Shown here piece after piece: positions 1-37,303 of a stretch of 37,303 nucleotides of DNA. Every line of letters starts with the position of its first letter. The stretch's first letter is position 1. Source of the DNA: a virus; the IMG/VR virus record IMGVR_UViG_3300025141_000305, positions 1-37,303 of that record; one strand, 5' to 3'. The position numbers were made by a program, and so were the translations under genes. The notes below the pieces were generated by a model that ran no database searches, was not told where the DNA came from, and saw only the letters and a program-made list of their open reading frames with translations.

Positions 1-66
1 GGTATAGAGATCGACGAAAAACGATGTGAACTAATAATTTCAAGGTTGGCTGATGGAGTTGGGTAA
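1..66 (+). CDS. 3' end of DNA methyltransferase (terminal-overlap copy)
   Basis: The first 22 codons, including the stop, repeat the end of the methyltransferase whose full copy lies at 36500-37180. The protein tail is identical. The only base difference, position 63 G against 37177 A, is a silent Gly codon change here. This is a fragment created by linearising a circular assembly, not a separate gene. Confidence 0.95.
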   Translation, partial: GIEIDEKRCELIISRLADGVG

Positions 67-189
67 GGAACTCTCCCCTGCCCAAAGGTTAGCTACCCTG
101 CCCACAAAAGACCGTGAGGCGGTCATAGGAAGCCTCTCGTCGCAAGAGAAGGTGGCTTTGCTGTATAGCTGGCGAACTTGGGCAAGACC
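1..189. repeat. terminal direct overlap, left copy
   Basis: Bases 1-189 match 37115-37303 except at position 63 (G here, A at 37177). Such an overlap is what an assembler leaves when a circular or circularly permuted genome is cut open. A true fixed terminal repeat is less likely because the junction lies inside the terminase and methyltransferase coding sequences. Confidence 0.95.
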
Positions 190-1387
190 CTCTCAAATCG
201 CCCCTGAATGGAATTGGCGTGTTTGGCTTCTACTCGCTGGTCGTGGATTTGGTAAGACTCGATGCGGAGCTGAATTTATCCGTCAAGAAGTCCAGGGAAA
301 TCGAGCTGGACATATCGCTTTAATCGCCCCAACCGCCGCTGATGCAAGAGATACCATGATAGAGGGGGAAAGTGGTTTACTAGGTATATTCCCGCCAAAC
401 GAAAGGCCAGTCTATGAACCGTCGAAGAGGAGAATCACTTTCAGCAATGGAGCGCTTGCGACAACTTTTTCTGCTGACGAACCTGATCGTTTGCGCGGTC
501 CTAATCACGATTTGGCTTGGTGTGATGAACTTGCTGCTTGGCGGTATCCGGAGGCGTGGGACATGCTTAATTTTGGGCTACGAATTGGGAAAAACCCAAG
601 AGTAGTAGCTACGACAACGCCTAGACCGACTCTCTTAATTAAGAATCTGATCGGGAGGGCTGATGTTCATGTCACTAGAGGAAGTACCTTTGACAATGCT
701 GCAAATCTTGCAACTGCTTTTCTTGACGAAGTGACAGCTCGTTACGAGGGGACCAGGTTGGGACGCCAGGAACTCCATGCCGAGATTCTTGACGATGTAG
801 AAGGCGCTCTCTGGAACAGAGACATGCTTGACGGAAATCGGGTAACTGAAGTGCCATATCTGAAGCGTATCGTGGTCGCTATTGACCCTGCTATATCTTC
901 AAATGCTGATTCAGCTGAAACAGGAATCGTTGCTATCGGTATCGACGAAAGGGACCAGGGATACGTCTTGGAGGATAGGTCGATAAAGGGAACACCAGAC
1001 GAATGGGCCAGGCAAGCTATCGCCCTGTATCATACAATTAAAGCTGACAAAATAATCGCCGAATCTAACCAAGGGGGAGACATGGTAAAACATACCCTCG
1101 CAACAGTCGATAAAAATGTTCCGATTCGATTAGTCCATGCATCGAGGGGCAAGCGAACTAGAGCTGAACCAGTAGCGGCACTTTATGAACAGGGGAAAAT
1201 CCATCATGTCGGGGCTTTCAATTTGCTAGAAGATCAGCTGTGTTCTTGGGTCCCAGGGGAAGGGCCATCACCGGATAGGCTTGATGCTTTGGTATGGGGA
1301 GCGACTGAATTGTTAGTGGGTACCCAAATGCCTCCAGCAGTGCTACCATCGGGTTTGTCGCAGTCTAATCCTTGGGCAATTACATGA
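53..1387 (+). CDS. terL: terminase large subunit (DNA packaging ATPase/nuclease)
   Basis: This is the motor that pumps phage DNA into the prohead and cuts it. The 444-residue length is usual for the family. The Walker A motif GRGFGKT is at residues 63-69 and the Walker B stretch DLAWCDE at 153-159. A TTTPRPT coupling motif follows at 187-193. The C-terminal RNase H-like nuclease has an AIDPA strand with Asp278, a second acidic site near Glu337, and acidic residues in SPDRLDALVWG near 406-415. The start overlaps the upstream methyltransferase by 14 bp. The portal gene begins on an ATGA overlap with its stop. In the right-end copy of the overlap, residue 4 is Asp instead of Gly. Confidence 0.95.
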   Translation: MELGKELSPAQRLATLPTKDREAVIGSLSSQEKVALLYSWRTWARPSQIAPEWNWRVWLLLAGRGFGKTRCGAEFIRQEVQGNRAGHIALIAPTAADARDTMIEGESGLLGIFPPNERPVYEPSKRRITFSNGALATTFSADEPDRLRGPNHDLAWCDELAAWRYPEAWDMLNFGLRIGKNPRVVATTTPRPTLLIKNLIGRADVHVTRGSTFDNAANLATAFLDEVTARYEGTRLGRQELHAEILDDVEGALWNRDMLDGNRVTEVPYLKRIVVAIDPAISSNADSAETGIVAIGIDERDQGYVLEDRSIKGTPDEWARQAIALYHTIKADKIIAESNQGGDMVKHTLATVDKNVPIRLVHASRGKRTRAEPVAALYEQGKIHHVGAFNLLEDQLCSWVPGEGPSPDRLDALVWGATELLVGTQMPPAVLPSGLSQSNPWAIT

Positions 1388-14201: not shown

Positions 14202-14984
14202 ATGATTTCGTACACTACGATTTCTCGCAAGCGGCGACGGAGACATGCTGATGTCCTGACGCTTCAGGAATGGCTGATAGAAATTGGGCATCGGCCAGGT
14301 GCCATCGATGGCGTATTCAATAAAAAAGTTGAGCGAGCTGTTATCAACTTTCAAACAAATGCTGGATTAGTTGTTGATGGTGTTGTGGGAAACCAGACCT
14401 GGGAAGCTTTGAAAATTGCATTATCTATGCAACGTAACGTTCTTGAATCTAAAGAACCGAAAGAATTTAGGGTAATTCCTAAGCGAGAATGGGGAGGGCG
14501 AGCGCCTAGACAAACAGCACCCCTCTTGAAACATATTCCGGTAATTTATATTCACCACACAGCTAGTCCTAGACCGTCGATAGCTGGAGAGTTTACTGAT
14601 GCTAGGAGGCACCAGGATCGACACATGGACGTTAATGGTTGGAGTGATTTAGCTTACAATTTCGTGATTACGCCTTCGGGCAGGATAATTGAAGGCAGGG
14701 GATTTGGAATCAGACCGGCTGGAAAAGGTTTAGGTGTTCGTAGGACGTACGGAATAGTCTTTCAAGGTTGCTTCCACCCTTACGTCAATGAAAAACCAAC
14801 CGAAGCGGCGATTGAAGCTTGTAGCTGGTTAGTTAAAAAGATGATTGACGAGGAATGGGTCGTCCCTGGTGTGGAAATTACCCCACATCGACACAATAAC
14901 GGTGCTAAAACTGTATGTCCTGGCGACCACTTGTATAATCGGATAGACGACATCAGAAAAGAAGTTTATGCAACCGTACTATGA
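14202..14984 (+). CDS. endolysin: peptidoglycan-binding domain plus N-acetylmuramoyl-L-alanine amidase
   Basis: This 260-residue lysin cuts the bond between muramic acid and the peptide stem at the end of infection. Residues 18-75 are a PG_binding_1 domain (LTLQEWLIEIGHRPGAIDG, GVVGNQTWEAL). Residues 91-255 are an amidase_2/PGRP domain beginning VIPKREWGGR. The zinc ligands are His118 or 119 in YIHHTAS, His229 in TPHRHNN and Cys239 in CPGDH. There is no signal peptide, so it needs a holin. The upstream 20 bases have no ribosome-binding site, but TAACAT lies six bases before ATG, so it may be leaderless. The next gene overlaps by 17 bp. Confidence 0.93.
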   Translation: MISYTTISRKRRRRHADVLTLQEWLIEIGHRPGAIDGVFNKKVERAVINFQTNAGLVVDGVVGNQTWEALKIALSMQRNVLESKEPKEFRVIPKREWGGRAPRQTAPLLKHIPVIYIHHTASPRPSIAGEFTDARRHQDRHMDVNGWSDLAYNFVITPSGRIIEGRGFGIRPAGKGLGVRRTYGIVFQGCFHPYVNEKPTEAAIEACSWLVKKMIDEEWVVPGVEITPHRHNNGAKTVCPGDHLYNRIDDIRKEVYATVL

Positions 14985-15705
14985 AGATAACAATACAACA
15001 ATTTTTCACAGCGACTGCTTGAATGTTGAACTGACTGAAAAGCCTAAACTTATTTTGACTGATCCACCTTATGCAACCGGCAAAGTTCAAAGCCGTGTCG
15101 GTGGTGAAAGTTATCCGGACAAAGAATCGGCAGAACAGATTTCCGAAAAGATAGAAACATTATGCGAGAAATGGTTTGGAGTAGATACTACGCTTGCCGT
15201 GGTATGTGATTACCGTTTGGCTTATCCGTTAGTGGCGAAGCTAGCAAAGTTTGGTTTAGTTTTGCGTGGTGAAATTATCTGGCAATTTGGATTAGGTCGC
15301 TCACGAAAATCTTGGTGGGCGAATAAACATAACCACATTTTGACTTTTACTGAAACGGAAACATCAGGTCAGTTTGATCCGTCAGCAATTCCTAGAACAA
15401 AACGCATTGTAGGCTCCAAAGGCTACCCACCAGATAAACCAGTTGGGAGCGTGTGGGAATACACTTTCGGGCAGAGTAATTCCGAGAGGGTAAAATATCC
15501 TAATCAAAAACCTTTGGCACTTTTGGAACCAATCGTTAAGGCACACACTTCTGACTCGGATTTAGTGTTTGACCCTTTTATGGGTTCGGGGTCTACTAGT
15601 GTTGCAAGTACCCGAAACGGTAGAAGATTTATTGGTTGCGATATTAAACAAGAAGCTTGCGACATAGCGGTTCAGCGAATACACAAGGAGTTTGCATTAG
15701 TATGA
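14968..15705 (+). CDS. site-specific DNA methyltransferase (N6-adenine or N4-cytosine)
   Basis: The 245-residue enzyme transfers a methyl group from S-adenosylmethionine to an amino group of a base. The catalytic motif DPPY is at residues 32-35. The AdoMet-binding motif DPFMGSGSTSVA is near the C-terminus, followed by FIGCDIKQEACDIA. Catalytic motif first and AdoMet motif last is the beta-class order. DPPY fits adenine methylation slightly better than cytosine N4. There is no partner restriction gene beside it, so it is an orphan that probably protects phage DNA. The start lies inside the amidase gene. Confidence 0.88.
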   Translation: MQPYYEDNNTTIFHSDCLNVELTEKPKLILTDPPYATGKVQSRVGGESYPDKESAEQISEKIETLCEKWFGVDTTLAVVCDYRLAYPLVAKLAKFGLVLRGEIIWQFGLGRSRKSWWANKHNHILTFTETETSGQFDPSAIPRTKRIVGSKGYPPDKPVGSVWEYTFGQSNSERVKYPNQKPLALLEPIVKAHTSDSDLVFDPFMGSGSTSVASTRNGRRFIGCDIKQEACDIAVQRIHKEFALV

Positions 15706-26045: not shown

Positions 26046-26060
26046 TATGATTAGTGAATG
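26046..26060 (+). promoter_or_regulatory. -10 element giving a leaderless whiB transcript
   Basis: TATGAT at 26046-26051 ends six bases before the ATG at 26058, the distance expected between a -10 box and the transcription start. No ribosome-binding site is present, so translation probably begins at the first base of the mRNA. No convincing -35 is seen. Confidence 0.55.
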
Positions 26061-26288
26061 CTTGACGAAAAGTGGCGCACTAAAGCTAATTGCCTCGGTC
26101 AGCCAACCGAATGGTGGTTCCCTGAAGTCGGGGAAAGGATAAGCCCGCAAGCCGCTGAAATCTGTGGGGGTTGTAAAGTTAAGAAGGAATGCCTCACTTT
26201 TTCCCTCTGGCCATTAGAACAGGGGATTTGGGGCGGCAAAGGGGAGCGGCAAAGAAGGCGCTACAGGGAGAATTTGAAAAAACCGTGA
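26058..26288 (+). CDS. whiB: WhiB-family Fe-S transcription factor
   Basis: The 76-residue product has the four WhiB cysteines, Cys12, Cys36, Cys39 and Cys45, expected to bind a [4Fe-4S] cluster. It also has the conserved GIWGG turn at 56-60 and a basic C-terminal tail (ERQRRRYREN) for DNA contact. WhiB proteins are restricted to actinobacteria and their phages, so this is the best host indicator. In hosts they bind the main sigma factor region 4 and redirect transcription. A phage copy may redirect host polymerase to phage promoters or repress host genes. The gene stands alone on the plus strand inside a minus region. Confidence 0.93.
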   Translation: MLDEKWRTKANCLGQPTEWWFPEVGERISPQAAEICGGCKVKKECLTFSLWPLEQGIWGGKGERQRRRYRENLKKP

Positions 26289-26556: not shown

Positions 26557-27726
26557 CTATTTTTCAGCCATATTCATGCCATTTGTTAGTAAAGCTAAAG
26601 CGAGGAGCGCTTGTTGGGGGACCACGCCGTTACCTAACATTCTTAATTCTGCACTCCTGCTACCTAACTCACTTTCAGTGACCCAACCGTCCGGTAAACC
26701 CATCATAAATTCAACGAATCTGGGTTCTACGCCTCGGTCATCTACTGGGTATGGGGCTAATCGCCCTGTGATTTTTTCCCACCTTCTAATTGCTGGGCCA
26801 TAAGCGCCGAACTCACAGATGGGGAGTGTTCCGTCTGTCGTTTCTGCCAATCGATATTCGGTCCGTGAACTTTCGCATCTACTGTTGTCGGGGTTGGTAG
26901 TAGCTTCTCGTTCGCCATTATTGTCATCAGCGTTCCTGGGAGTATGCTCCGGTCCATTCCCTTCTGCCAATTCACGTTCTTGCCGTGGTCCTTGTAATCT
27001 CTCGCTGTTGGGGTCGGTAGAAGTTTTTGAACTTCTATGCTGAGGCTCTTTCCATGAGGTGCTGCCCTCCCTGTTGAAGATTTCTGTCTGGCCGCCCATT
27101 CCTCCCACTCCTCTATTGTTTTCCCTGCCCCCATGTCGTTCACTACTGGTGTCGGGAGTAGTACTTTCCCTATCTGATTCTCCAAGTTTTGCGGACCTGT
27201 TTCCCTGATCCAAGGACGAGTGTTTCGGGGGTCTGCCATTGCTGACCTTGGTGTCCCAAGCAAGGCAGAACCATCTCGCACGTTTATGAGGTGCTCCGGT
27301 ATCGGAAGCTCGTACAACGCCCCATCGACAGTCGTACCCCAATTCGGTAAGCGATCCAATGACGGAGGTTCCTCCGAGAGTAAGGTGTCCTGCGACATTC
27401 TCCAAGATGATGACTCCTGGTCGTAAAATGCTAATGGCGCTTGCAATGTATTGAAAGATGGCTCTGTCATCTTCTTCTCCTAATCTTTGTCCAGCTGTTG
27501 AAAACGGCTGACAAGGGTACCCAGCACAAATAATATCTACTGGTTCTATTTTTGTGAAATCTATTTTTGTTAAATCTCCTAAGTTTGGCACACCTGGCCA
27601 GTGCCTTTCAATAACTTTGGTGCAGTGTTTGTTTACTTCTGAATACCAAACCATTTCAGCGCCGAAATGTTGTTCAATAGCTAAGTCCAAGCCGCCGTAT
27701 CCGGTGCAGAATGAGCCAACTTTCAT
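26557..27726 (-). CDS. DNA (cytosine-5) methyltransferase
   Basis: The 389-residue enzyme makes 5-methylcytosine. Motif I is SFCTGYGGLD (5-14). Motif IV is GYPCQPFS with nucleophile Cys72. Motif VI is ENV (109-111), motif VIII RARWF (149-153), and motif X LGNGVVPQQA (364-373). Residues 158-300, where the target-recognition domain lies, are hydrophilic and repetitive, with units such as PDTSSER, DPNSER and NPDNSR. The same DNA encodes another protein frame (26757-27470). No restriction partner is visible. It starts by an ATGA overlap with the preceding gene. Its product could be the substrate for the dioxygenase at 34264. Confidence 0.93.
   Translation of the reverse strand: MKVGSFCTGYGGLDLAIEQHFGAEMVWYSEVNKHCTKVIERHWPGVPNLGDLTKIDFTKIEPVDIICAGYPCQPFSTAGQRLGEEDDRAIFQYIASAISILRPGVIILENVAGHLTLGGTSVIGSLTELGYDCRWGVVRASDTGAPHKRARWFCLAWDTKVSNGRPPKHSSLDQGNRSAKLGESDRESTTPDTSSERHGGRENNRGVGGMGGQTEIFNREGSTSWKEPQHRSSKTSTDPNSERLQGPRQERELAEGNGPEHTPRNADDNNGEREATTNPDNSRCESSRTEYRLAETTDGTLPICEFGAYGPAIRRWEKITGRLAPYPVDDRGVEPRFVEFMMGLPDGWVTESELGSRSAELRMLGNGVVPQQALLALALLTNGMNMAEK
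26757..27470 (-). CDS. nested overlapping gene inside the cytosine methyltransferase, LPTP-repeat protein
   Basis: A 237-residue frame on the same strand, shifted +1, lies wholly inside the methyltransferase gene. It starts MTEPSFNTLQAPLAFYD and continues MSQDTLLSEEPPSLDRLP then NWGTTVDGALYELPIPEHLI. Repeats follow: LLGTPRSA, LLPTPVVND, LLPTPTARD, LLPTPTTVD. I recognise this layout from free-standing phage proteins found with methyltransferases. The ATG has an AGGAG site at proper spacing (TTAGGAGAAGAAG before ATG). That site also encodes the conserved LGEEDD segment of the enzyme, so it may be incidental. Function is unknown; a regulator or specificity partner of the enzyme is speculation. 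Confidence 0.6.
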   Translation of the reverse strand: MTEPSFNTLQAPLAFYDQESSSWRMSQDTLLSEEPPSLDRLPNWGTTVDGALYELPIPEHLINVRDGSALLGTPRSAMADPRNTRPWIRETGPQNLENQIGKVLLPTPVVNDMGAGKTIEEWEEWAARQKSSTGRAAPHGKSLSIEVQKLLPTPTARDYKDHGKNVNWQKGMDRSILPGTLMTIMANEKLLPTPTTVDAKVHGPNIDWQKRQTEHSPSVSSALMAQQLEGGKKSQGD

Positions 27727-33611: not shown

Positions 33612-33626
33612 TACAGTAGGGACATG
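33612..33626 (+). promoter_or_regulatory. -10 element giving a leaderless parB-like transcript
   Basis: TACAGT (33612-33617) ends six bases before the ATG at 33624, the spacing seen at whiB. No ribosome-binding site is present. It would drive the modification and packaging operon that continues across the contig junction. Confidence 0.45.
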
Positions 33627-34235
33627 GATATAGAACAAACGAAAATCACAAAGTTATTTACACACCCCGACAACCCTCGACAGGGGGATATCGGCGCTAT
33701 AGCTACGAGTATTGAGCAGAACGGTTGGTACGGAACCATCGTTGCACAGAAATCAACAGGTCATGTCCTGGCAGGTAATCACCGATTACAAGCGGCTCAA
33801 CAATTAGGAATGGAAGAACTCCCTGTTTATTGGGTAGACGTAGACGACACCGAAGCCAGGAAGATTCTATTGGCTGATAACAGGACAAATGATTTAGCTA
33901 TTTACGATCAGGATATTTTGGCAGGAATTTTGACGGACCTGGCCAGCATAGATGAACTCTTAGGAACCGGCTATGACGGCGATGACATCGACCAATTACT
34001 GAATGACATCGACAGAACAGACGGTGATCTTGATTTATCTGGGATCGATTCAGTTCAAGAAACATTTTCAGCAGGGGAACGTGAGGAAATGTGGAAAGGG
34101 ACTGGGATTCGTTCAATCATTTTGCCTTACGAGACTGAAACGTTCGCTGAAGTAGTACAGGCGCTACAAGAAAAACGGAAAGAGCTTGATCTGGAATCCA
34201 ACAGCGAAGCAGTCGCAAGCTTATTAGGACTGTAA
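33624..34235 (+). CDS. ParB-like domain protein
   Basis: The 203-residue product has the ParB/Srx fold in its first 100 residues: FTHPDNPRQGDIGAIATSI, then HVLAGNHRLQAAQQLG with Arg54, and ARKILLADNRTND. Phage proteins of this type are found beside methyltransferases and can act as CTP-binding switches or nucleases. The C-terminal half is acidic and not recognised. It has no ribosome-binding site, so it is likely leaderless. It heads an operon with the dioxygenase and glycosyltransferase, suggesting a role in DNA modification or packaging. Confidence 0.82.
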   Translation: MDIEQTKITKLFTHPDNPRQGDIGAIATSIEQNGWYGTIVAQKSTGHVLAGNHRLQAAQQLGMEELPVYWVDVDDTEARKILLADNRTNDLAIYDQDILAGILTDLASIDELLGTGYDGDDIDQLLNDIDRTDGDLDLSGIDSVQETFSAGEREEMWKGTGIRSIILPYETETFAEVVQALQEKRKELDLESNSEAVASLLGL

Positions 34236-34263
34236 CCACCAGGGAAAGGGACCAGGGAAAACA

Positions 34264-35130
34264 ATGATAAGAGTTATCCCAGTAAATAAAAAACCAACTG
34301 ATTGTGAGAAAAGGGACCGTGTCCCTGTCCCACCTGGCCGAGCACAATTATTATCAAACTGCCATTTGGTAGATTCTGAAACCGGTGAAACTTTAGCATT
34401 ACACGCTCAACTTAGTGACCCACCGGAAATCATTGCACCTATCAGGAAGTGGCTCCGTAGCTATAAAGGTTGGGCAGATGCAGGCGTGACGAAAATAGAA
34501 AGCTCGTCATCTTCAAGGCTTTCAGGTATAAAGAACGCGAATACAACTTTCGGGACTGCCCCAGCTGTGCCTCTTCGACGAAAATGGGGAGCCTCGCCAT
34601 CAAGGTTAAATCAAGAATACCCTGCCGCCGGTTACGCCCTGGAAGAACTCGGTGCGGCTTGTGCTAGGTATTTCAAAGAAAACCTACCCAAAGAATGGGA
34701 ACAGCACACAGCACTTGAAGGTATAACAAACATTCATGATGGCTGGAAGTTTAGGGACGGCGAGGTTCCTTGGACTAGCGGTATTATCAACAAAACTGCG
34801 GCTCTGCCTTACCATAAAGACGCCGGAAACGTTCCTGGTTCTTGGTCTGCGATGGTTGTTTTAAGGAAAAACATCGACGGAGGACACCTCCATATCCCAG
34901 AAATCGACGTTTGGTTAGCTTGTAATGACCTTTCAATAAGTATTTTTAGAGGTAGGGACCACCTACACGGTGTTACGCCGTTTCAAGCCAGGAACGAAAG
35001 TGCTTATCGCTACTCGATTGTTTACTATGCGAAAACCCAGCTACAAAAGGCATTAGCACCTGGTGAAGAAATAAAGCAGGCAGAACGTCGAGCGACAAAA
35101 TCAGCTGACGATGTAGTGAAGGGTGACTGA
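34264..35130 (+). CDS. TET/JBP-like 2-oxoglutarate-Fe(II) dioxygenase
   Basis: A 288-residue enzyme expected to oxidise the methyl group of a modified or normal pyrimidine in DNA. Iron ligands are His184 and Asp186 in LPYHKDAGN, and His235 in HLHGVTPF; Arg249 in AYRYSIVYYAK would hold 2-oxoglutarate. The order HxD, GGHLHIPE, HGV.P, RYSIVYY is characteristic of the TET/JBP group. Phage TET enzymes are known to convert 5-methylcytosine to 5-hydroxymethylcytosine for further modification. A 5mC methyltransferase is in the same genome and a glycosyltransferase immediately follows. A thymine-oxidising JBP function cannot be excluded. Confidence 0.8.
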   Translation: MIRVIPVNKKPTDCEKRDRVPVPPGRAQLLSNCHLVDSETGETLALHAQLSDPPEIIAPIRKWLRSYKGWADAGVTKIESSSSSRLSGIKNANTTFGTAPAVPLRRKWGASPSRLNQEYPAAGYALEELGAACARYFKENLPKEWEQHTALEGITNIHDGWKFRDGEVPWTSGIINKTAALPYHKDAGNVPGSWSAMVVLRKNIDGGHLHIPEIDVWLACNDLSISIFRGRDHLHGVTPFQARNESAYRYSIVYYAKTQLQKALAPGEEIKQAERRATKSADDVVKGD

Positions 35131-35131
35131 A

Positions 35132-36058
35132 ATGCCTGTAGCCCTTTTTTACCTAGCGAAACCTAGAACCGGAGGTTGGCTAACGTACACGGCTCACCTA
35201 GCAAAAGGTTTCAATGGTGATGTGACGCTTTTCAGGATAGGGAAAAGAGATGAGAAACAAAAAAGAGAGTTCGGGAGGGGTTTACAGTACCAAAACATCA
35301 GCTTAGAACATGCAATCGCAATAGCTCAAATTTTCCCGAGTTTGATTACTGCGACTGATAAACATTACCAGGAAGCCGCAGAAACTTTAGTAACAGAGGC
35401 AAAAATACCAGCTGTAGTTCACGATCCAACAGAATTGAAACTTGCGCACATTTCAAAGCTAGAGAAAATGTTTGTCATTCGAGAAACAATGCTCGCCCAT
35501 TTACCAAAAGCAACTTATATACCACACCCATATATGAGGTGTCCTGATTTAACACCTTCACAAAGAAAAGAAAATGCTGTAGCTATCAGCAGAATTGACT
35601 ATGACAAACGGACACACCTAATCGCGGAAGCAAACAAACTCGGCGCAAACATCACAATTTACGGTACCGAGAACCGTTTATATACACACCATAAACTAAA
35701 CAAGGAGCACCCGGAATGGCGTGAAATGTATCGAGGGAGTTTCCCAGTAGATGATTTATGGGCAGGCACTCGTATTTGTAGTCAATATAAAAACATGATA
35801 GATATGTCAGTCATATCTGGAGATGGTGGCGGTACCCAATACACATTCCTTGAAGCTTTAGATGCTGGAACTGGACTGATATTACATGATGAATGGAAAC
35901 CCTCTGGCAAATTAAAAAACATCTGCGAAACTGTTGGTTCTGCAGAGGAACTGCGTCTAGCCACTAAAGATACAAACTTCCATAAGAAAGAAGCAAACTC
36001 TCTTTTGCAAGAACATGATGCAATTAAAATCGCTCAAGAATATTTGGAAAAGATATGA
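35132..36058 (+). CDS. GT-B glycosyltransferase, putative DNA glycosyltransferase
   Basis: The 308-residue protein has a GT-B/GT4-like C-terminal half: NAVAISRIDYDKRTHLI (about 148-164) starts the nucleotide-sugar domain, and GDGGGTQYTFLEALDAG holds Glu241 at the usual donor-binding position. ATG 35132 follows GAAGGG by eight bases. A GTG at 35123 overlapping the dioxygenase end is less likely. It follows the dioxygenase by one base and overlaps the small terminase by four. The inferred acceptor is hydroxymethylcytosine in phage DNA; a protein or lipid acceptor is possible. Confidence 0.75.
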   Translation: MPVALFYLAKPRTGGWLTYTAHLAKGFNGDVTLFRIGKRDEKQKREFGRGLQYQNISLEHAIAIAQIFPSLITATDKHYQEAAETLVTEAKIPAVVHDPTELKLAHISKLEKMFVIRETMLAHLPKATYIPHPYMRCPDLTPSQRKENAVAISRIDYDKRTHLIAEANKLGANITIYGTENRLYTHHKLNKEHPEWREMYRGSFPVDDLWAGTRICSQYKNMIDMSVISGDGGGTQYTFLEALDAGTGLILHDEWKPSGKLKNICETVGSAEELRLATKDTNFHKKEANSLLQEHDAIKIAQEYLEKI

Positions 36059-36507
36059 AATCTATTAAGCCCGAAACAGCTAGAAGATACCGTCAAGTCT
36101 TAGAATTAAGGTGTGCCGGTTTACCATTTGAAGAAATTGCAACCAGGACCGGCTATGCAGGAAGGCAAGGAGCCAAGAAAGCTTATGATGCCGCTTGCCA
36201 AAGGTGGGCGATTGAAACAGTCGAACAGCAACGAATTATCCAATCGGAACGACTCGATAGGATATTCACACAAGCATACCTATCTGCCAGGAATGGTGAT
36301 CTCCAAGCAATCGACAGATGCCTAAAGATCGAGAAGCGCCGAGCTGAATTGTGGGGACTCGATGCACCGAAACAACACACAGTGACCGGCGCTGACGGTA
36401 ACGCGATAGAAATATCAACAGATATCGGGAAAATCTTAGAGGACCGGATCAACTCGATAGCTAATCGCGACCCAATAGTGCTTGAAGCACACAATAAACA
36501 TGAGTGA
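36055..36507 (+). CDS. terS: terminase small subunit
   Basis: This 150-residue protein starts with a helix-turn-helix (RYRQVLELRCAGLPFEEIAT then RTGYAGRQGAKKAYDAA), followed by a helical oligomerisation region ERLDRIFTQAYLSARNGDLQ and IDRCLKIEKRRAELWGLDAP, which ends in the LWGLDAP segment common to small terminases of this group. It would recognise phage DNA and recruit the large subunit. It is two genes upstream of terL with only the methyltransferase in between. Confidence 0.78.
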   Translation: MKSIKPETARRYRQVLELRCAGLPFEEIATRTGYAGRQGAKKAYDAACQRWAIETVEQQRIIQSERLDRIFTQAYLSARNGDLQAIDRCLKIEKRRAELWGLDAPKQHTVTGADGNAIEISTDIGKILEDRINSIANRDPIVLEAHNKHE

Positions 36508-37180
36508 ATTGGCCTACCAAGATGAATATATAAAGCTATTCCACGGAGATTACCGCTCAGTTCTCCCTAGTTTGAATGATGTAGATTTTGATTGTGTCCT
36601 CCTTGATCCCCCATTTGAGACCTGGGAAACGGTCACACCTGGCCATTTCCAGGGAATACCAAAGAAGGTTGTTTTCACGAATTGGCAACATCGAGGAGTC
36701 ATTGAAAGCTATTTCGGGAAACCAAGAAGCGAGTTTGTCTGGTATTTCAAAGATGGTCGATGGGTATCTCATCGATTACCAAGGCAAACACATGAATTGA
36801 TCTACATATACGGAGAAACCGTCGAAGCATACGTTGGCGAAAAGATCGAAGATCGAACTCCCCAAAACAAAGGCAGAGGAGCAGTAGGGAAAGACACTTA
36901 CAGCACCCACATCTATAGACCCAGGGAAAGGAAAATACTGAACAGCGTCTTAGAATACCCGCGAAACAACCGAAATGGAATGGGGGCTTGGGGAAAACCT
37001 GAAAAGCTTATTCGTAACCTTTTAGAATTTGTATCGCCAGGTGTAGTCTTGGACCCTTTTGCCGGTGGCGGTTCTACGCTGACCGTAGCTAAGAAATTGA
37101 AAATGAAGGCTATCGGTATAGAGATCGACGAAAAACGATGTGAACTAATAATTTCAAGGTTGGCTGATGGAGTTGGATAA
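36500..37180 (+). CDS. site-specific DNA methyltransferase between terminase genes
   Basis: The 226-residue enzyme begins at ATG 36500, eight bases before the terS stop ends (ATGAGTGA); a TTG at 36482 is less likely. The catalytic DPPF is at residues 36-39 and the AdoMet motif DPFAGGGSTLTVA is near the C-terminus, the beta-class order. DPPF is compatible with adenine-N6 or cytosine-N4. It overlaps terL by 14 bp, so it is co-translated with the packaging machine and may mark packaging sites or protect DNA. No restriction partner is visible. Confidence 0.88.
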   Translation: MSELAYQDEYIKLFHGDYRSVLPSLNDVDFDCVLLDPPFETWETVTPGHFQGIPKKVVFTNWQHRGVIESYFGKPRSEFVWYFKDGRWVSHRLPRQTHELIYIYGETVEAYVGEKIEDRTPQNKGRGAVGKDTYSTHIYRPRERKILNSVLEYPRNNRNGMGAWGKPEKLIRNLLEFVSPGVVLDPFAGGGSTLTVAKKLKMKAIGIEIDEKRCELIISRLADGVG

Positions 37181-37303
37181 GGAACTCTCCCCTGCCCAAA
37201 GGTTAGCTACCCTGCCCACAAAAGACCGTGAGGCGGTCATAGGAAGCCTCTCGTCGCAAGAGAAGGTGGCTTTGCTGTATAGCTGGCGAACTTGGGCAAG
37301 ACC
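37115..37303. repeat. terminal direct overlap, right copy
   Basis: Matches 1-189 with a single A/G difference at 37177. See the left copy. The difference changes residue 4 of the large terminase from Gly to Asp in this copy and is silent in the methyltransferase. Confidence 0.95.
37167..37303 (+). CDS. terL: 5' fragment of terminase large subunit (overlap copy)
   Basis: The frame begins MELDKELSPAQRL and is cut by the window end after about 45 codons. It is the duplicate of the gene start at 53 and not a separate gene. Confidence 0.95.
   Translation, partial: MELDKELSPAQRLATLPTKDREAVIGSLSSQEKVALLYSWRTWAR

Follow-up and report, generated by a model that had tools for sequence, protein, structure and literature searches.

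Hypermodification of DNA by a TET enzyme and a glycosyltransferase is already known in phages. Phage TETs active on 5-methylcytosine (5mC), and clusters of C5-cytosine methyltransferase (C5-MTase), TET, and glycosyltransferase genes, were described by Burke et al. (2021, PNAS), as related in PMC12730594 and PMC11404850. Islands with the gene order ParB / Tet-like / aGPT-PPlase2 / kinase are present in the actinophages Tonitrus (PMC11955845) and MossRose, and the Tonitrus set was called a thymidine hypermodification system by its authors. In phage T4, the alpha-glucosyltransferase (AGT) is a DNA hydroxymethylcytosine glucosyltransferase. Glycosylated 5hmU was reported in 2019 as not seen among phage genomes (PMC6449724).

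The stretch of DNA analysed here (37,303 nucleotides, IMG/VR record IMGVR_UViG_3300025141_000305; hereafter, the window) carries a cassette encoding a ParB-domain protein, a TET/JBP dioxygenase, and a GT-B glycosyltransferase (below, ParB, TET, and GT). As in the Burke-type clusters outlined in the two sources above, a phage TET/JBP and a glycosyltransferase are found with a C5-MTase in the same genome; unlike in those clusters as outlined there, the C5-MTase lies outside the operon and is unlinked to TET across relatives, the putative base is more likely thymine than cytosine, and the GT falls outside the Pfam TAGT family. With the Tonitrus and MossRose islands the locus shares the ParB-TET start, a related TET, and adjoining packaging genes, but a single glycosyltransferase stands where those islands have a kinase plus a pyrophosphorylase or amino-acid transferase. 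Were the base thymine, the locus would also resemble the kinetoplastid base J pathway (JBP1/2 and the J glucosyltransferase), in which TET/JBP oxidises thymine and the hydroxymethyl group then receives a sugar; here, however, the setting is a phage with a single short TET/JBP enzyme of 288 aa without a recognised extra domain. The GT shares its fold with T4 AGT, which acts on hydroxymethyl-pyrimidine DNA, but the two are only ~12% identical, there is no sequence-family match, and T4 hmC is made at the nucleotide level, without a TET. In related phages, the position behind TET is taken by the TET-associated glycosyltransferase TAGT (PF20691), whose profile matches neither the GT nor any of five aligned members of the GT family. 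The new elements are this GT family, the exchangeable slot that it occupies, and the base that is probably modified.

Results

Genome ends and gene layout

Positions 1-189 of the record are repeated at 37115-37303 (189 bp, one mismatch). We therefore take the window to be a closed genome of ~37.1 kb and not a linear fragment. An imperfect end overlap of this kind was also seen in IMG/VR contigs L059, L090, L097, and L127. Because the ends are closed, the methyltransferase gene that follows terS runs into terL, and ParB, TET, GT, terS, the methyltransferase, and terL make up one co-directional run across the join (Table 1). ParB and TET are separated by a 28-nt gap; TET and GT overlap by 8 nt, GT and terS by 4 nt, and terS and the methyltransferase by 26 nt. 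The first-pass annotation had described the three cassette genes as one tight unit running directly into terS, a methyltransferase, and terL, and reading frames, profiles, the GT-B structure model, spacing, and the terminal repeat all bear this description out. From the gene order we infer that expression may be timed with packaging, as it had proposed for the modification. No promoter-like site was found in the region before ParB, and the base composition of the genome carries no modification signature (CpG 0.94, GpC 1.03).

Table 1. Features of the phage genome referred to in the text (positions in the window)
Feature	Coordinates	Strand	Evidence
ParB_N-domain protein, first cassette gene	33624..34235	+	PF02195 E 3.8e-6; PHROG ParB families to 2e-38
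TET/JBP 2-oxoglutarate/Fe dioxygenase	34264..35130	+	PF12851 E 3e-10; H184, D186, H235 metal triad, R249
GT-B glycosyltransferase, unnamed phage family	35123..36058	+	motif SGDGGGTQYTFLEALDAG; structure model
Terminase small subunit (terS)	36055..36507	+	phrog_645 E 9.7e-26
N6/N4-type DNA methyltransferase between terS and terL	36482..37180	+	PF01555 E 1.4e-16, DPPF motif
Terminase large subunit (terL)	53..1387	+	PF03237 E 1.4e-21
C5-cytosine methyltransferase, accessory gene	26557..27726	-	PF00145 E 1.2e-39; PCQ + ENV motifs
whiB	26058..26288		PF02467 E 4.8e-13

By its profile and motif, the methyltransferase encoded between the two terminase genes is of the N6/N4 type; it is not a C5 enzyme and does not make 5mC. 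A second N6/N4-type DNA methyltransferase is encoded at 14968-15705, giving the phage three DNA methyltransferases in total. The terS family found here also directly precedes terL in relatives. Two PHROG names are misleading: the TET family, phrog_6059, is labelled queuine tRNA-ribosyltransferase, a label also found on many mycobacteriophage records, and the terS family, phrog_645, is labelled RNase E. The presence of whiB, noted in the first-pass annotation, was confirmed and supports an actinobacterial host.

ParB and the TET/JBP dioxygenase

The PF02195 match of the ParB protein lies above the Pfam cut-off, and in most related loci a ParB gene immediately precedes TET. Its role is probably DNA binding or targeting. 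A scan of genome contigs with ParB gave no matches.

The assignment of the second cassette gene to the TET/JBP family, made earlier from sequence, is secure as judged by both profile and predicted structure. The protein scores 40.0 bits against Pfam Tet_JBP (PF12851), whose curated cut-off is 34.9 bits, and the four residues named by the first-pass annotation (His184, Asp186, His235, and Arg249), which comprise the metal triad and the distal Arg, do not vary among 57 aligned sequences. When an AlphaFold model (pLDDT 91.5) was compared with PDB, ranks 1 to 26 were all occupied by TET-family folds (CcTet, CMD1, NgTet1, and TET2), followed by the AlkB family with an E-value (1e-6) three orders weaker than that of the weakest TET. 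A search of IMG/VR with this single TET protein returned nothing, and alignment queries were needed to collect relatives. The TET relatives L346-L350 come from actinomycete MAGs and from Siphonobacter and Pedobacter genomes and are probably phage or prophage.

Active-site residues were considered as readers of the substrate base and rejected: Asn189 is common to TETs with every partner, and an HxDxxD subtype goes with large genomes without a C5-MTase. This divergent subtype, with HxDxxD instead of HxDxxN, was seen in L092, L096-L098, L106, L116, L119, L122, L127, and L154; its neighbour was a member of the GT family in every observed case, and C5-MTase was absent from every large contig with it that was searched. 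Lys257 aligns with a His of NgTet1/TET2 that we take to be a base contact, which does not identify the base.

The GT-B glycosyltransferase

The GT gave no sequence match in Pfam, PHROG, GenBank phages, or PDB, and fold comparison was therefore used. The structure model (pLDDT 95.2) contains the two Rossmann-like domains of a GT-B enzyme, and its top PDB folds are GT4-type GT-B enzymes. T4 AGT appears in the Foldseek results at PDB rank 4 (E 3.4e-10, TM 0.68). At least 162 stretches in IMG/VR contain relatives, the closest being those of contigs L087/L088 (67% identity). We regard the members of this unnamed family as candidate DNA glycosyltransferases.

A GT acting elsewhere, on a virion protein, the wall, or a polysaccharide, while TET acts on DNA and the two genes adjoin through operon packing, would be compatible with the promiscuity of the GT4-like fold and with the many fold matches to sugar or small-molecule glycosyltransferases. 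We consider this improbable: the GT stays beside TET through much divergence, T4 AGT ranks with the top fold matches, and GT genes without a TET go with synthase-type hydroxymethylase genes and a 5hmdU kinase (see below). Still less probable is a degenerate or inactive cassette, in favour of which we saw nothing specific, for the frames are all open, the catalytic residues invariant, and the structure models confident. That TET and GT act together on a DNA base we regard as very probable.

A modular slot beside the terminase genes

The order ParB-TET-X-terS-terL recurs in phages from IMG/VR and GenBank, where X is this GT family, TAGT (PF20691), or an amino-acid:DNA transferase with a P-loop nucleotide kinase 3. 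On a tree of 119 related phage TETs, X is exchanged between sister TETs: GT in L088 is replaced by TAGT in L203 and by the transferase plus kinase 3 in L011 and L225; GT in L120 by a kinase in L037; and GT in L141 and L125 by a transferase plus kinase in L061. Since close sister TETs carry different X, one TET type appears to serve several tailoring chemistries. A slot of this kind, with fixed ParB and TET/JBP and a variable tailoring enzyme, is common in environmental phages. Profiles for thymine-type tailoring enzymes (kinase, amino-acid transferase, and pyrophosphorylase) had no match in this phage; such enzymes are present in sister-TET loci.

In the sister contigs L087/L088, a gene for a GT8-type glycosyltransferase stands between ParB-TET-GT and the terS-terL pair, and C5- and N6-methyltransferases are encoded on the other strand. 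The GT8-type gene (L087:8942-9658) suggests a second sugar there; the phage reported here has no GT8 at this position. The nearest terL relatives that are devoid of TET (L248:6243-9875 and L250:611-3566) have this slot, ahead of terS, occupied by ParB and a C5-MTase, together with a class I methyltransferase and, in L248, a QueC-like gene. Beside the kinase-type TET cassettes of L037, L043, L061, and L067, the C5-MTase is split into two overlapping frames, which may reflect a split enzyme, a frameshift, or decay.

Linkage of the C5-MTase to the cassette

The first-pass annotation had proposed that a C5-MTase encoded in the same genome, an assignment upheld by our profile search (Table 1), supplies 5mC, which TET and GT convert to 5hmC and glycosyl-5hmC. 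In this cytosine route, 5mC would be made at the sites of the C5-MTase. All three enzymes are encoded here and are likewise kept together in L087/L088, L015, and L049/L051, and co-occurrence of phage TETs with C5-MTases has a published precedent (Burke et al. 2021, as related in PMC12730594). The homologue of the C5-MTase in sister L087 is 43% identical. Between the two phages the GT and terL are 67% and 68% identical, while the target-recognition part of the C5-MTase diverges far more, as does TET (39%). This joint divergence of TET and the recognition part is what would be expected if TET follows the specificity of the methyltransferase.

Other observations argue against the cytosine step. 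The C5-MTase gene lies on the strand opposite to the cassette, 5.9 kb away. Its presence requires 13 changes on the TET tree for 13 positive rows, against a mean of 12.5 with shuffled labels, so that it appears, from these comparisons, scattered at random. Nor is there any association with TET among related phages: PF00145 matches were found in 16 of 99 contigs with TET and in 7 of 49 terL-related contigs without it (p = 1), and, when only contigs of at least 25 kb are counted, in 10 of 44 and 3 of 16, respectively, these rates being approximate because some contigs are near-duplicates or fragments. The relatives L059, L090, L097, and L127, which combine TET and GT in genomes closed by end overlaps, have no PF00145 match. 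The module would thus work without a C5-MTase in those phages; the phage reported here does have one. The C5-MTase is a putative partner of the cassette. Of the earlier proposal, the idea that phage DNA is first oxidised and then glycosylated is well backed by the TET fold, a GT-B fold close to that of T4 AGT, and conservation of the ParB-TET-GT-terS-terL module; the view that the phage holds a complete pathway via 5mC is not supported by comparison with relatives, which leans to thymine.

Tailoring partners and the thymidylate synthase link

The enzymes that replace the GT after sister TETs, an amino-acid:DNA transferase with a kinase, are enzymes of thymine hypermodification, which also speaks against cytosine. 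A further line of comparison comes from GT genes that occur without a TET. A thymidylate-synthase-family gene accompanies the GT family in 22 of the 24 contigs that lack TET, versus 0 of 16 with TET (p = 2e-9), and the C5-MTase occurs in none of the 24. In thymidylate synthases, an Asn/Asp residue selects the base, Asp being the residue of a CMP hydroxymethylase; every synthase from these contigs that is complete enough to align has the dUMP-type Asn. The contigs combining a GT and a thymidylate-synthase-like gene without TET include L112, L117, L130, and L157. A scan of the neighbouring genes, which covered a few such loci, revealed 5hmdU-kinase-like genes (with the 5hmdU DNA kinase helical domain) in two and radical-SAM genes (radical SAM/SPASM) in three. 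By their gene content, these loci look like a second hypermodification island that employs the same GT family.

TET-linked and synthase-linked members fall on either side of a single switch in the GT tree. A change of acceptor base may have accompanied this switch, and conservation of the acceptor across it is a presumption. The synthase link, which at first was read as strong support for thymine, is weakened by this topology.

Discussion

We propose that the cassette acts after replication, as a module for DNA hypermodification. ParB would probably guide the module to DNA, TET/JBP would act on a 5-methylpyrimidine of the phage DNA and oxidise its methyl to a hydroxymethyl group, and the GT-B enzyme would add a sugar from a nucleotide-sugar donor onto the hydroxymethyl hydroxyl. 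The sugar may shield phage DNA against host nucleases before packaging.

As to the base, thymine appears more likely than 5mC. For the module as a whole we lean, with modest confidence, towards a route resembling that of base J, from T through 5hmU to glycosyl-5hmU. The cytosine route, for which the divergence of TET alongside the C5-MTase recognition part is an argument, remains a tentative alternative that we judge less likely.

More broadly, there is an even chance, in our estimate, that these phages hold a counterpart of the base J pathway, in which TET/JBP would hydroxylate thymine in replicated DNA and the unnamed GT-B family would glycosylate the resulting 5hmU. The GT would be exchangeable in its slot with kinase/transferase sets, and elsewhere a dUMP-hydroxymethylase-like enzyme would take the place of TET. 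If the base is thymine, the cassette would represent a phage route to glycosylated 5hmU, and an origin of base J from phage enzymes would become testable. Should the proposed counterpart be real, it would be a candidate for the ancestral source from which base J arose.
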